From Fulvia fulva (Eukaryota > Ascomycota > Dothideomycetes > Mycosphaerellales > Mycosphaerellaceae): a stretch of DNA of 64,000 bases. This document shows positions 49,281 through 64,000 of the stretch, in pieces (the stretch's first letter is position 1; every line of letters begins with the position of its first letter). The notes under the pieces were generated by a model. It saw only the letters and a list, made by a program, of their open reading frames with translations, did no database searches and was not told where the DNA came from. A program made the position numbers and the translations under genes. The stretch covers positions 3,472,001 through 3,536,000 of the forward strand of contig NC_063017.1 in NCBI RefSeq assembly GCF_020509005.1. The letters are read 5' to 3'.

Positions 49281-50558
49281 ATGGCAGCCCAGGCTACGGT
49301 ACTAACGGCGCCTACGGCCCTACAGGCGAAGCCCCCCCAAGACAACTGGCAGCAACTTATAGAGGACGCAAAAAGCATGGAAACTAACGATCAGCTCCCT
49401 TACCGGTCTCTACAGGTAATGATCACTCAGCTACGCACGGCGCTTGTACTGTCGTATCACCGAGGGCAACAAGAAATGAGGACGACGTCCCAGGCGATTA
49501 GCAAGGCCACCCGGAATCAACACCCCCATAGCTGGGCATCGGTCGCGGCATCGATACCAGGCCCCCGCCCAACGCACGATGCAGTTACGATCCGCATTGC
49601 AGCAAAGGAAGACCAGGCCGAAGTTGCGAAGCTATCGAACAAGGAGCTCGCCCAACGAATTAACCAACCAGGGGTGGTCGCAGTGAACCAACAGTCTAAC
49701 GGCACCCTACAGATCTATACTAGCTCTGCTACTGCTAGGAGGCACCTAGAGGCACAGCCACAGTGGGCATCTAAGGTTGCGGCATCAGCGAAGGTCTCAA
49801 CGAAACAATTCACGATCCTAGTCCACGACATGCCTAAGGAGTTTGACCCAACCAACCAGGGTCACCTACGCGCTCTCCAAGAGGACAACCCGGTCACTCT
49901 TAACTCTCCAATCCAGAAGGCGACTTGGCTCCATAGGAAATGGCCAGAAGGCAAGAAGGCCTCGGCGCTAATAGTATGGCTACAAGACGCGAAAGCGGCG
50001 GATCTAGCGATAGAACAAGGCCTGGTCTGGCAATACAGCCTCAAGACAGTAGAAAAGCACTCCTCATCCTTTCGTGTCCTCCAATGCTTCAAATGCCAAC
50101 AGTATGGACACCAAACCTACACGTGCACAAACAAGCAGGCCTGCTCGAACTGTGCAGGAGACCATATGTCTAGGGACTGTACATCGACTACGAGACGGTG
50201 CGCGAACTGTCCGGGGCACCACCCATCGTATAGTGCGGAATGCCCACAGCGGAAACTAGCGAAAAACAAGGCAATCACAAACAGAACCGTCGCCCCAAGA
50301 TTCTACGGCGACCGTGAGGCTAGCCCACACCGGAACCAACTAGCGGCGGTCGGGCACAAGCGCCCTAGGGCCGAGAACGATGTAAAGGATGCGCAGCCTA
50401 GGGCGTACGGGAGGCCACGTGCTCTGCTAGCTGCGGCGAGGGAATCTAACCAGGCCCGGCTCCCCTTTAGTACACAGCCGATAGGCGTAGACCAGGACGC
50501 ACAGGGCAGTAGGACACAGGACGATACAGAGGAAATGATTGTCGATGCCGATGACTAG
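49281..50558 (+). CDS. LINE ORF1, zinc-knuckle nucleic-acid-binding protein
   Basis: 425 residues. A helical N-terminal half carries AT-QRINQPGVVAVNQQSNGTLQ-type sequence resembling an RNA-recognition fold. Then come CCHC zinc knuckles: CFKCQQYGHQTYTC, CSNCAGDHMSRDC and CANCPGHHPSYSAEC. Such ORF1 proteins coat the element RNA. The stop codon overlaps the ORF2 start region. Confidence 0.88.
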   Translation: MAAQATVLTAPTALQAKPPQDNWQQLIEDAKSMETNDQLPYRSLQVMITQLRTALVLSYHRGQQEMRTTSQAISKATRNQHPHSWASVAASIPGPRPTHDAVTIRIAAKEDQAEVAKLSNKELAQRINQPGVVAVNQQSNGTLQIYTSSATARRHLEAQPQWASKVAASAKVSTKQFTILVHDMPKEFDPTNQGHLRALQEDNPVTLNSPIQKATWLHRKWPEGKKASALIVWLQDAKAADLAIEQGLVWQYSLKTVEKHSSSFRVLQCFKCQQYGHQTYTCTNKQACSNCAGDHMSRDCTSTTRRCANCPGHHPSYSAECPQRKLAKNKAITNRTVAPRFYGDREASPHRNQLAAVGHKRPRAENDVKDAQPRAYGRPRALLAAARESNQARLPFSTQPIGVDQDAQGSRTQDDTEEMIVDADD

Positions 50559-53500
50559 CCTCGACACGCTTAGCATCATCCAGTATAACGTCAACCATAG
50601 CAAGGATATAGTCCAGAACCATTTCCTACACGAGGCGGACCCGCGCGTCCACCACGTCCTTGCAATCCAGGAGCCATGGATTAACCCGCACTATAAGAGA
50701 CCAACGACCTGCAAGTCACCAGGCTACACGACATGCCTACGAGGCGACGGCAGACCCCGCACGTGCTTCTATGTCAGCAAGGACATACTAGAATCCGACT
50801 GGGAGGTAGTGTACTACGCAGACGAAGAAGGCGGGGGCGATATTACCTCCCTCCACGTGGGTAGCACCTGGATACACAACCTATACATGCAACCGCCAGC
50901 CTCGAGGTCTAGCCGCGACCTAGGGGTCTGCAGACACCTAGACAGTGCGCTCAAGAGACAAGGGTGCCACATCGTAGTAGGAGACTTCAACATACACCAC
51001 CCTTCCTGGGAAAGCCTTATGCAGCCGCACCCTATAGCCGACGAAGTACTCGACTTGATGGCGAGCAACGCAATTGCCCTCAATACCCCGAAGGACCTGG
51101 GCACCTGGAAGAGAGGGGGACTCCAAGGCACGATCGACCTCTCCTGGATCTCAGATAGCCACTACCACACGGTAACCTACTGTGGGATCGAACATGAACT
51201 CGAGGCGTCGTCAGACCACATGCCAGTCAGGACCTCTATTGCGACACAGATACAACGCACACCAGCGAGAACCCCTAAGCCAAACTGGGGAAAGGCCCAC
51301 TGGGCCAACATCCAGGCGTACCTCGATGACTCCAAGAGGCTAGTCCAGATCGCGCAGCAGCAATACAACAGTAAAGACGAGATAGACGAAGCAGTCCAGG
51401 GGTTGACAGACGAAATAAGAAAAGCGACCTCACTCCACGTTCCGCTTGCCCAACCAACGACATGGTCCAAACCATACTGGACGCCGGAGTGCACTGCGGT
51501 AGTAAGAGAAGCAAGGAGAGCCCGCCGGGTGTGGACGAGCAGCCATAGCGAGGAGGCCTGGAACGTATACAGGGAGGCATGCCAACAGAAGAAAGCCATA
51601 ATACGGAGGGAGAAAGCAGTCGGCTGGAGGGCCACAGTGGAAGAAATCGCCGGCAAGCCAGAGAGGATGTGGAAGCTAGCGAAATGGGCCCGACAGGACC
51701 CTACACAGGGCCCCTCCTTCTCTATCCCAGCGCTACAATCGCCTAGTGGCCCGGTTAGCGACCCCGAGGCCAAGGCGCGTCTACTGGCTAGCAAGTTCTT
51801 CCCACCCCCAGTCGAGGCTGATCTAAGCGACATAAACAGCTCTACTCCCCTAGCCCCTAGCATCGCGGTCCAACAGGAGGTGTCCGAGGGAGAAGTTACC
51901 GCTGTGCTGAGGAAGTTGCCGGCGAAGAAAGCCCCGGGGCCGGATGGGATCCCAAACGAGCTACTAAAGAAGTGTAGAGATCAACTAGCCCCAGCAGTTG
52001 CAGCGATCTTCAACGCCTGCCTACAGACCGGATACCACCCGATAGCTTTTAAACAATCGACGACAGTGGTCCTACGCAAGCCGCAGAAGGAAGACTATAC
52101 GCAGGTGAAGTCGTACCGCCCAATTGCGCTCCTTAACACTCTTGGGAAGGCGCTTGAGAAGCTGGTTGCAACGAGACTCTCCGAGGCGGCAGAGGAACAC
52201 TCCCTACTCCCGGACACCCAGATGGGTGCGCGCCCACAGCGATCGACGCTATCCGCGATGGAACTTATCACCTCTCAGGTAAAGGCCATCTGGTATAAGA
52301 ATAGGGACAAGGTGGCTTCCTTACTTAGCCTAGACATATCGGGAGCCTTCGACTACGTGTCACACCCGCGGCTTCTCTACATCCTAAGGTCGAAAGGACT
52401 CCCTGAGTGGCTTGTCAACTTCGTACGGTCCTACCTCCAAAACCGCAGTACGTCGATCCTGGTCGGCCAGTACAGAAGCCCATTTCAAGCAGTCCACACT
52501 GGAATCCCGCAAGGCTCAACGCTAGCACCTATTCTGTTCCTCTTCTTTATGGCGACGCTGCTCCCAGCCCTAGAATCCCAGAACACCGCTGCGAGCGGCT
52601 TCGTAGACGACACAAACATCCTAGCGTGGTCTTCCTCGACTGAGGAGAACTGTAGGCTACTAGAAGAGAAGCACAAGATCTGCGAGGACTGGGCTAGGAG
52701 GCACGGGGCTCGGTTTGCCCCAGAAAAGTACAATCTGATACACTTTACGCGCCGGCCACGGTTCCACAATATGCAAGCTTCTATCCAGATACAGGGGCAC
52801 ACGACTAACCCGGCAAATCAGCTCAGGATCCTCGGACTATGGGTGGACCCGGCGCTACGGTGGAGGAAGCACGTACAGGCAATATTACGGAAAGCTGAAC
52901 AGAATATAGCATCATGCCAGAGGCTCACTGCGTCCACATGGGGGGCGGACTTCCGGCAGTCACGACTTCTATATACGGCTATTGTACGGCCAGTCCTTAC
53001 CTATGGCAGCCAAGTGTGGTCCTTAGGCGAGAGGGCCTGCCCATCGAAGGGACTCGTCGCGCCGCTAGCGAAGATCCAAAACCAATGCCTAAGGAAGGTC
53101 ACCGGGGCATATAAGTCGACACCAACGAGGATGCTTGAGCACGAGACCGCTATACCGCCGATCGACCTATACATCCAGGGACTACGGACCTCCTACTTAG
53201 GCAAGTCGGCACAGTACCCAGTACAGAAGGTCATCGCCAGTGCAGTCGCAAGGGCCCGCGAATCAGTACCAGCGCATAAGGGCATTCGACCCGGAAACGA
53301 GCCGAACTACCGGGCAAGGGACGAACAGCTAGCAACACAATGGGAAGGTGAGAAATCGTTTGTAGAGCAACTATGGAAAGAGAGGTGGAACAACCAGGTT
53401 GTAGGGCATAGTGGACGCCCTCAGCCAGCGGGACAACCTAAGGAATGGTCAGCTACAAAATCCGCGGTCAAGCACCCCCCGAAGCTCATCCACTACCGCC

Positions 53501-53862
53501 TTACGAGGGCACAGAGTAGCATAGCAACCCAACTGCGAAGCGAACACATCGGCCTCCAGGGGTACCTATCATGGAGGAAGGTCCCAGGATACACGAATAC
53601 TAGCTGCCCCTGCGGCTATCGCTCCCAGAACGTACGGCACGCACTCCTCGTCTGTCCGAGGTGGTCGCTAGGAAGGGGGGAGTGGATGGTAAAGGCGAGG
53701 AACCGGACGATTGGGGCACTTCTTAACAACGCTGAAGACCTACGGCGCATTACGAACTGGATACTAGAGAAGGGCTGGCTAGAACAGTACCGCCTAGTAG
53801 GAGCAGTGCAGGAAGAGAGGACACGACGCAGCGCGACGAGACCGGCTAGGAGCGGGGGCTAA
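50545..53862 (+). CDS. LINE ORF2, endonuclease and reverse transcriptase
   Basis: 1105 residues from the ATG at 50545 (a second ATG at 50551 is also in frame). The N-terminal part is an endonuclease-exonuclease-phosphatase domain (IIQYNVNHSKD, AIQEPWINPHY, HIVVGDFNIHHPSW, EASSDHMPVRT). The reverse transcriptase follows (KAPGPDGIPNELLKK, SYRPIALLNTLGKALEKL, LSLDISGAFDYVSHPRLL, GIPQGSTLAPILFLFF, SGFVDDTNILAW with catalytic FVDD). A C-terminal CCHC-like motif (CPCGYRSQNVRHALLVCP) is present. I see no RNase H domain. The start overlaps the ORF1 end by 14 nt, or 8 nt from the second ATG. Confidence 0.92.
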   Translation: MPMTSLDTLSIIQYNVNHSKDIVQNHFLHEADPRVHHVLAIQEPWINPHYKRPTTCKSPGYTTCLRGDGRPRTCFYVSKDILESDWEVVYYADEEGGGDITSLHVGSTWIHNLYMQPPASRSSRDLGVCRHLDSALKRQGCHIVVGDFNIHHPSWESLMQPHPIADEVLDLMASNAIALNTPKDLGTWKRGGLQGTIDLSWISDSHYHTVTYCGIEHELEASSDHMPVRTSIATQIQRTPARTPKPNWGKAHWANIQAYLDDSKRLVQIAQQQYNSKDEIDEAVQGLTDEIRKATSLHVPLAQPTTWSKPYWTPECTAVVREARRARRVWTSSHSEEAWNVYREACQQKKAIIRREKAVGWRATVEEIAGKPERMWKLAKWARQDPTQGPSFSIPALQSPSGPVSDPEAKARLLASKFFPPPVEADLSDINSSTPLAPSIAVQQEVSEGEVTAVLRKLPAKKAPGPDGIPNELLKKCRDQLAPAVAAIFNACLQTGYHPIAFKQSTTVVLRKPQKEDYTQVKSYRPIALLNTLGKALEKLVATRLSEAAEEHSLLPDTQMGARPQRSTLSAMELITSQVKAIWYKNRDKVASLLSLDISGAFDYVSHPRLLYILRSKGLPEWLVNFVRSYLQNRSTSILVGQYRSPFQAVHTGIPQGSTLAPILFLFFMATLLPALESQNTAASGFVDDTNILAWSSSTEENCRLLEEKHKICEDWARRHGARFAPEKYNLIHFTRRPRFHNMQASIQIQGHTTNPANQLRILGLWVDPALRWRKHVQAILRKAEQNIASCQRLTASTWGADFRQSRLLYTAIVRPVLTYGSQVWSLGERACPSKGLVAPLAKIQNQCLRKVTGAYKSTPTRMLEHETAIPPIDLYIQGLRTSYLGKSAQYPVQKVIASAVARARESVPAHKGIRPGNEPNYRARDEQLATQWEGEKSFVEQLWKERWNNQVVGHSGRPQPAGQPKEWSATKSAVKHPPKLIHYRLTRAQSSIATQLRSEHIGLQGYLSWRKVPGYTNTSCPCGYRSQNVRHALLVCPRWSLGRGEWMVKARNRTIGALLNNAEDLRRITNWILEKGWLEQYRLVGAVQEERTRRSATRPARSGG

Positions 53863-62999: not shown

Positions 63000-63154
63000 T
63001 CAGTGTGGCTGTCGGCTGCCAGCTACAGCTCTTTCCCATTTCAAAATCCTGTTCGCACATGTTGCCCGCTACCTCGCTACAACGTGCCGGAGGGCACTAA
63101 TCAAAAGATACATATACATTCAAATTTCACGCTTACTCATCAGCAAGCACGATC

Positions 63155-63205
63155 GTAAGTTCCGCGTCACAATCATGCTTTGAGCATCATCTAACATGTT
63201 TCCAG
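63155..63205 (+). other. Spliceosomal-type intron 1 in tRNA-His (acceptor stem)
   Basis: 51 nt, GTAAGT donor, CTAAC branch at 63191-63195 and TTCCAG acceptor. It separates tRNA bases 4 and 5. Confidence 0.75.
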
Positions 63206-63224
63206 ACGTAGTGTAGTGGTTATC

Positions 63225-63276
63225 GTGAGTTATCTCGTAAGATCGTGTTTCTCGAGCTCGCCTAACAGCAAATCAG
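63225..63276 (+). other. Spliceosomal-type intron 2 in tRNA-His (D arm)
   Basis: 52 nt, GTGAGT donor, CTAAC branch at 63262-63266 and ATCAG acceptor. Joining the exons rebuilds the D-stem CAC. Confidence 0.75.
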
Positions 63277-63290
63277 ACGTCTCGTTGTGG

Positions 63291-63313
63291 AACGTACATC
63301 GTTATCACAGCCT
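63291..63313 (+). other. Canonical tRNA intron after base 37
   Basis: 23 nt between G37 and C38 of the anticodon loop, the only intron place normally used in eukaryotic nuclear tRNA genes and removed by the tRNA splicing endonuclease. Confidence 0.7.
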
Positions 63314-63326
63314 CCGAGGAGGTCCC

Positions 63327-63378
63327 GTAAGTTTGCACCTGTGGTCAATGATAAGCCGTCGTACTAACAACACCACAG
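63327..63378 (+). other. Spliceosomal-type intron 3 in tRNA-His (T stem)
   Basis: 52 nt, GTAAGT donor, TACTAAC branch at 63362-63367 region and CCACAG acceptor. It splits the CCCTG half of the T stem after its second base. Confidence 0.75.
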
Positions 63379-63401
63379 CTGTTCGATCCAGGGTGTGGTC
63401 A

Positions 63402-64000
63402 TTCAAATAACTTTCAATGAACTGCTTAATCTTTTGGTCTGCTGTCGGAAGAGATGTCGGTGTTGGAAGTGGTTGCCCGTCTTTTGGTGAAATCTGAGTA
63501 TTATGGCCGCGGTATCTGACTAAAATTTATCATTGGGAATGCAATGCAATACGAATGGCTTGATCTAATTGACGAGGCTGCAAAGTTTTGTGAAGGTTGT
63601 AACGATTCACGCCGAGATATGTGACGTCGAAGATGGGCGGTATAGCATAGTGGAGATCTTAGTAGCCTTGCTGCCTTCGTTGCTTTCTAGCTTCTACGGC
63701 TCGCTTGAAGTTTTGTACCTCTTTGACATAGACAAGGACATGCTGAACATGTCTGGCCACCATGCTTAGTGCATTGGCTCATAGTGCCAAACAGGTATGG
63801 TGAGATGGTATATCGCAGATCCTGTGCATTAGTAAGGCAGACATCAGCACTCTTTAGCACTGCAGCGTAGCTTCGAACCACAGCATCGAACGCCTACGTT
63901 GCATTAGATGCATACCCCGAAGCACCAACGGTACAGCATCTTGCGATGGGAGCTCGCCATGTCAGTTCGTAGGAAGATCTGTATAAGATGATGTTGAAAC
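63402..64000. other. Window end, no gene seen
   Basis: About 600 bp after the tRNA. Apart from the T4 run at 63432 I see no gene. The frames present are short and not protein-like. Confidence 0.45.

Follow-up and report, generated by a model that had tools for sequence, protein, structure and literature searches.

Spliceosomal-type introns appear to interrupt many nuclear tRNA genes of the fungus Fulvia fulva

Introns of nuclear tRNA genes are taught as one per gene, located beside the anticodon and cut out by a protein endonuclease. Spliceosomal introns also occur in ascomycete genes that do not encode mRNA, as in the nuclear rRNA genes of lichen-forming species; those hosts differ from the genes described here in being Pol I genes. 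The closest precedents are fungal U6 snRNA and U3 snoRNA; a 2017 paper (PMC5832005) states that, to date, frequent interruption by an intron is known among small structured RNAs for these two alone. As in the present case, the interrupted genes encode small, structured non-coding RNAs and the introns are spliceosomal, and U6 is a Pol III gene. Here, however, the hosts are tRNAs of many isotypes, with up to three, perhaps four, introns per gene. The tRNA genes of the red alga Cyanidioschyzon merolae and of archaea are similar in another way, having introns at several scattered places, internal promoters that are split, TATA-like boxes and T-runs (PMC3978253). Their introns are of the bulge-helix-bulge (BHB) type and are cut by the tRNA endonuclease, whereas those described below carry splice sites and branch points and show no excess of BHB structures. 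Lastly, introner-like elements have been published for F. fulva, and spliceosomal introns have been gained in this same lineage (PMC4457414).

The window, meaning the whole stretch of DNA analysed, spans 64 kb (C6:3472001-3536000) of a genome of 67,169,167 bases in 14 contigs. Neither ARAGORN nor Rfam at its gathering score finds a tRNA in it. Nevertheless, window positions 63151-63401 (plus strand) hold a gene, termed His1, whose exons consist of GATC followed by 19, 50 and 23 nt. The 50-nt exon is itself made up of 14 nt, a 23-nt anticodon intron and 13 nt. Unspliced His1 gives no ARAGORN call, whereas cutting out three GT-AG segments leaves 96 nt that ARAGORN identifies as tRNA-His(gtg) with a score of 107.2 and an intron at i(38,23). 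The features of the locus, compared where relevant with a second tRNA-His gene (L014), are as follows.

63111..63115, plus strand: TATA-like element CATAT, 40 nt 5' of the mature His1 end
63151..63154, plus strand: His1 exon 1, tRNA bases 1-4 (GATC)
63155..63205, plus strand: spliceosomal-type intron 1, 51 nt, GTAAGT...CTAAC...CAG; missing from L014
63206..63224, plus strand: exon 2, bases 5-23, with the D arm and A box
63225..63276, plus strand: spliceosomal-type intron 2, 52 nt, GTGAGT...CTAAC...CAG; site also used in L014, by a 53-nt intron
63277..63290, plus strand: exon 3a, bases 24-37, with anticodon GTG
63291..63313, plus strand: anticodon-loop intron, 23 nt, at the canonical place; of tRNA-endonuclease type by position, ARAGORN i(38,23)
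63314..63326, plus strand: exon 3b, bases 38-50
63327..63378, plus strand: spliceosomal-type intron 3, 52 nt, GTAAGT...CTAAC...CAG, in the T stem; missing from L014
63379..63401, plus strand: exon 4, bases 51-73, with the T arm and B box, the 3' strand of the acceptor and A73
63432..63435, plus strand: TTTT, likely Pol III terminator of His1

The mature 73-mer pairs completely in the acceptor (7/7), D (3/3), anticodon (5/5) and T (5/5) stems, with three G-U pairs, and carries anticodon GTG and A73. An initial sequence-only reading had claimed that removing three GT-AG segments and a 23-nt anticodon-loop intron leaves a perfect 73-nt cloverleaf, and the ARAGORN score and fully paired stems bear this out. 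It had placed the breaks after bases 4, 22 and 50; the first and last stand, and the second falls after base 23. With its GUG anticodon, paired acceptor, A73 and Pol III-like flanks, His1 has the features of a tRNA-His gene, and its prediction as a tRNA-His(GUG) restored at GT-AG borders is confirmed at the level of sequence. Each of the three introns (51, 52 and 52 nt) contains GTRAGT, CTAAC and CAG. Canonical nuclear tRNA introns sit at position 37/38, a place taken in His1 by the separate 23-nt intron, unlike the introns at sites 4, 23 and 50 with their spliceosomal signals.

Using the joined His1 sequence as a query returned one other locus, the L014 gene (C6:4922337-4922488, minus strand). 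L014 is broken at site 23 by a different 53-nt intron, and sites 4 and 50 are uninterrupted at base precision. At these two sites L014 shows the joined letters directly, matching the exact spliced product of His1. All 65 compared exon bases are identical between the two genes, whereas the introns at site 23 share 58% identity, compared to 56.5 ± 4.2% for random pairs of introns.

Ample normal tRNA-His genes would have favored the view that His1 is dead, a case raised with the initial reading. We looked for such genes and found no uninterrupted tRNA-His in a partial, non-exhaustive scan made up of RF00005, joined-sequence, 20-mer and His-pattern searches. None of the 22 RF00005 matches was called His, one of them (L028) being without any ARAGORN call. 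A 20-mer from the 5' half of tRNA-His, allowing up to three mismatches, hit eight places: His1, L014 and six that ARAGORN labels Val, Thr, Ala, Glu, Thr and Glu, labels that are unsure for the five with long anticodon inserts. A general His pattern running from the D arm across 23/24 to the anticodon, with two mismatches, matched 12 places, compared to 29 when the pattern was reversed as a control; on visual inspection none of the 12 was a plausible tRNA-His.

His1 itself stood up to analysis, but the notion of a single odd gene did not: many tRNA genes of the genome are likewise interrupted. An intron-aware search recovered 27 such genes (His1 and 26 others) for 10 amino acids, with 49 spliceosomal-type introns. 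The parser drops up to four GT-AG segments of 44-75 nt that contain a branch-point-like motif and then runs ARAGORN for tRNAs that span the junctions. Its input was the surroundings of 71 matches to a B-box pattern, GGTTCGANTCC (79 matches for the control), together with places from other tRNA searches. The catalogue comprises Gly(GCC) with four genes, Asp(GTC) with four, Gln(CTG) with three and Gln(TTG) with one; Leu with five (two AAG, and TAG, CAA and CAG), Thr with three (two AGT, one CGT), His with two and Ser with two; and one each of Val(TAC), Glu(CTC) and Pro(CGG). Twelve genes have one intron, eight have two and seven have three; L048 may hold a fourth and has one insert outside its parse.

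These 27 genes derive from 32 parser rows, five of which were removed: L007 and L087, which ARAGORN scored as well or better unspliced, and L095, L097 and L099, which repeat L031, L048 and L081. For L035 and L048, parses from earlier runs were substituted, L060 was labelled Asp(GTC) by hand, and a call at L055 (score 103) was left out of the count. The B-box sample, which is blind to introns outside the box, gives a measure of frequency. Among its 34 tRNA-like matches 22 are interrupted, or 22 of 29 when a six-copy repeat is counted once; put another way, the 71 places divide into 22 interrupted genes and 12 uninterrupted tRNA-like matches (7 with the repeat counted once), with the other 37 outside the count. 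All such counts are partial, as the B-box and A-box patterns pick up only a share of the genes. Five newly fetched loci from 42 A-box matches contained no interrupted tRNA. RF00005 at E ≤ 0.001 matched 22 places (63 of 1234 candidates scored), six of them in copies of one repeat.

That repeat accounts for six copies of a tRNA-like gene (L019-L024; ARAGORN Gly TCC with a 43-nt anticodon intron) at C1:10675274, C2:4010719, C5:4745140, C9:2445509, C12:312588 and C4:5392158. They lie in dispersed stretches of at least 2 kb that are at least 99.7% identical to the reference copy, making this a tRNA-like gene borne on a repeat or mobile element.

A parser that tests many combinations could restore tRNAs by chance. 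We therefore ran it with 18 decoys, each a false donor or acceptor dinucleotide, under identical scoring on 115 stretches, namely His1 and 114 of the 126 fetched loci. The decoys produced 2-16 calls, 0-4 of them with scores of at least 107, compared to 28 calls for GT-AG, 26 of them at that level. Among the decoy calls listed, up to eight per decoy, most fell at true tRNA loci. Smaller decoy runs gave 0-3 calls against 12 real ones. Under a looser motif the decoys yielded 3-12 calls and the real motif 17 (1-4 and 15, respectively, at scores of at least 104); because of these decoy calls the catalogue was built with the strict motif. When the window was tiled (91 overlapping tiles, both strands), His1 was the sole tRNA restored, in two overlapping tiles. 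An assembly artefact is opposed by the published state of the assembly, whose 14 contigs are taken as chromosomes (PMC9453070). Overall, the probability that chance or misassembly created these genes seems negligible.

The 49 introns are 48-62 nt long (median 53, within the 44-75 nt allowed). All have GT-AG borders, as imposed by the parser, and the donor consensus is GTAAGT, with G at +5 in 48 and T at +6 in 40; GTAAGT or GTGAGT in full occurs in 24 of the 49. CTRAY is present in 47, a branch-like motif having been demanded, and 46 end in CAG or TAG. GT, the branch-point match and AG are thus partly built in, which does not hold for length, branch distance or exon identity. The branch A lies 10-13 nt from the 3' end in 48 introns and at 7 in one, although a wide range was allowed. 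The donor consensus, this distance and the exact restoration of the cloverleaf on removal are the marks of U2-type introns. For group I or group II introns, 48-62 nt is too short to hold the core, and no Rfam family reached its gathering score in the window.

For comparison with mRNA introns, the window holds the ERG7 gene, whose protein shares 89% identity with its Dothistroma septosporum counterpart. Homology (tblastn with the Dothistroma protein) backs two introns in it, of 52 and 67 nt, which are similar to those of the tRNA genes in having the form GT...CTGAC...CAG but place the branch A at 14 and 15, outside the range of 10-13. Two broader comparison sets were rejected. One built from joined open frames was unspecific (44 introns versus 26-52 for decoy donors), and a stricter one yielded 8 versus 0-9 for decoys, one of the 8 being His1 intron 1 with a later AG.

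Grouped by us into families, the introns occupy 37 family-sites, with none in positions 29-44 (p of about 9e-5 under a uniform expectation). This gap is partly definitional because ARAGORN assigns any intron lying exactly at 37/38 to the anticodon class; one variable-arm site was placed at 45 by hand. In the anticodon loop itself, ARAGORN reports an intron for 22 of the 27 interrupted genes.

The tRNA genes of C. merolae suggest another explanation, in which the extra introns are BHB introns cut by a relaxed tRNA endonuclease. That alga offers a close parallel, with up to three introns per tRNA gene, split A and B boxes, TATA-like boxes and T-runs (PMC3978253). In a simple helix test, however, a central 4-bp helix is possible at 4 of our 49 junctions, versus 7.4 ± 2.2 with shuffled exons. 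We rejected BHB introns on this below-shuffled result; moreover, BHB processing provides no reason for a GTRAGT, CTRAY and YAG design with a near-fixed branch distance. It would be very surprising if these were BHB introns, and the spliceosomal class remains the one we favor.

Comparing paralogues separates the exons from the introns. Exons are identical over the compared bases in Gly (4 genes), Asp (L034, L038 and L084), Gln (L042a and L066) and His, whereas introns at the same site are 59-85% identical in Gly, Asp and Gln and 58% in His. Although drifted, these same-site introns keep GT, the branch motif and AG. Exons do differ between the Thr genes L085 and L027, between the Leu genes L081 and L083, and for L042b and L060 relative to the other Gln and Asp genes, respectively. 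Exact presence or absence of an intron among paralogues is seen at His sites 4 and 50, at Gly 62 (lacking in L016) and at Asp 10/11 (lacking in L038). Gene conversion could in principle maintain the exons, but it would be strange for it to spare the introns and act on exons of just 4-50 nt; the simpler account is purifying selection acting on the joined exons.

These patterns bear on the possibility that the interrupted genes are pseudogenes killed by inserts while the cell lives off uninterrupted copies. Uninterrupted genes do exist for some isotypes (Gly L016, Ala, Cys, Val AAC and others), and L042b, with its low score of 100.6 and poor acceptor stem, looks degenerate. On the other hand, four paralogue groups combine identical exons with drifted introns, signals resembling promoters and terminators are retained, and the partial scan found no uninterrupted tRNA-His even though each cell needs one. 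Given the exon constraint and the lack of an uninterrupted tRNA-His among the genes found, we reject the dead-gene reading as very unlikely and continue to regard the interrupted genes as functional candidates.

Flanking signals speak to the polymerase. A loosely defined TATA-like element lies at -80 to -28 in 26 of 27 interrupted genes, compared to 18.6% of random places. Downstream, a run of at least four T within 50 nt is found in 26 of 27 (10% at random), and one of at least five T within 60 nt in 23 of 27 (3% at random). In a set of 16 uninterrupted tRNA matches, the corresponding counts are 11 for TATA-like elements, 14 for T4 and 11 for T5. Inside the introns TTTTT never occurs (0/49) and TTTT, a weak terminator in some fungi, occurs in four. 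Avoidance of TTTT was not detected relative to the unspecific mRNA-like set (4/49 versus 7/44, Fisher p = 0.34). Because of the TATA-like boxes upstream and T-runs downstream we favor Pol III, and the sequence signals argue for its transcribing the interrupted tRNA genes.

Transcription by Pol II must still be weighed, since Pol II transcripts are the usual substrate of the spliceosome. Introns also split the A box in 8 of 27 genes and the B box in 3 of 27, which should hamper TFIIIC unless the TATA box weighs more. By analogy, its weight may be above usual here, as greater TATA weight has been argued for C. merolae (PMC3978253). Against Pol II stand the T-runs and TATA-like boxes, present in 26 of 27 genes each, like the uninterrupted set and unlike random places. 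Fungal U6 and U3 also show that genes for small structured RNAs can contain spliceosomal introns (PMC5832005). We judge Pol II transcription unlikely and proceed with Pol III. The intron load does not appear to be general to Pol III genes because U6, SRP RNA and 5S rRNA genes are present whole, in searches that match uninterrupted genes only: one U6 gene complete from end to end (C4:1169208-1169308), one SRP RNA gene (C8:3220938-3221191) and 18 5S rRNA genes (47 of 3102 candidates scored).

The initial reading had offered three ways to account for His1: a Pol III transcript processed by the spliceosome, a Pol II transcript or a dead gene. Given the 27 genes, the exon constraint, the TATA-like boxes and the T-runs, we prefer the first. 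It is highly probable, in our estimation, that this fungus uses the spliceosome to mature Pol III pre-tRNAs, with both splicing and polymerase deduced from sequence. The tRNA endonuclease reads the folded tRNA body. The proposed order of events is as follows. Pol III would be drawn by the TATA-like box and the remnants of the A and B boxes and would stop at the downstream T-run, giving a precursor of approximately 250 nt for His1. A U2-type spliceosome would then take out the introns in the nucleus. Afterwards the tRNA body could fold, its ends would be trimmed and the tRNA endonuclease would cut the anticodon intron; reading of the tRNA body by yeast Sen54 is given as probable in PMC3978253.

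The introns were likely gained within an intron-invaded lineage. No target-site duplication was seen by direct reading at the two comparable sites, His 4 and 50, and fungal introners, interpreted as reverse-spliced, lack them too (PMC9860276). Introner-like elements typically have many near-identical copies in a genome. His1 introns 1 and 3 matched only themselves in a first, word-based look at the genome, made with these two of the 49 introns, which makes recent introner copies a less likely source for the two. None of the tRNA introns was linked to a particular introner family.

We consider it probable that these introns represent a third class of nuclear tRNA intron in a genome where most sampled tRNA genes are interrupted. 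The spliceosome would then be essential for tRNA maturation, for histidine decoding and for all translation, with the endonuclease keeping the anticodon loop and the spliceosome serving the body and arms. No report of spliceosomal introns in tRNA genes was found in the literature searched, which covered the listed titles and the beginnings of their abstracts, with preprints and most subscription papers outside it. The word tRNA is missing from the main text of PMC4457414, PMC9860276, PMC9453070 and PMC3510045, the last being the 2012 genome paper.

The genome thus appears to hold tRNA genes that are readable only once several mRNA-type introns have been cut out of the acceptor, D and T arms. 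Confirmation would mean that the spliceosome acts widely on Pol III transcripts and that pre-tRNA maturation has a second splicing pathway. Many of the tRNA genes here would then be likely to escape standard tRNA finders. Sets of paralogues that have or lack a given intron would also offer a natural series in which to follow the entry of introns into genes without a reading frame.

Several further observations emerged from the survey. Locus L042 (C2:5631527-5633794, minus strand) contains two interrupted tRNA-Gln(CTG) genes in tandem, with starts about 260 nt apart; the second has three introns and a weak acceptor. At L087, L090, L091, L092 and L093, near position 1494-1664 of each locus, tRNA-like genes have inserts of 70-99 nt called in or near the anticodon loop, with T-runs downstream; in three of these loci the insert directly precedes the anticodon. 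Elsewhere in the window, positions 49281-53862 contain two overlapping open reading frames of 425 and 1107 aa, which, from their motifs, we take to be the gag and reverse transcriptase of a LINE-type retrotransposon.
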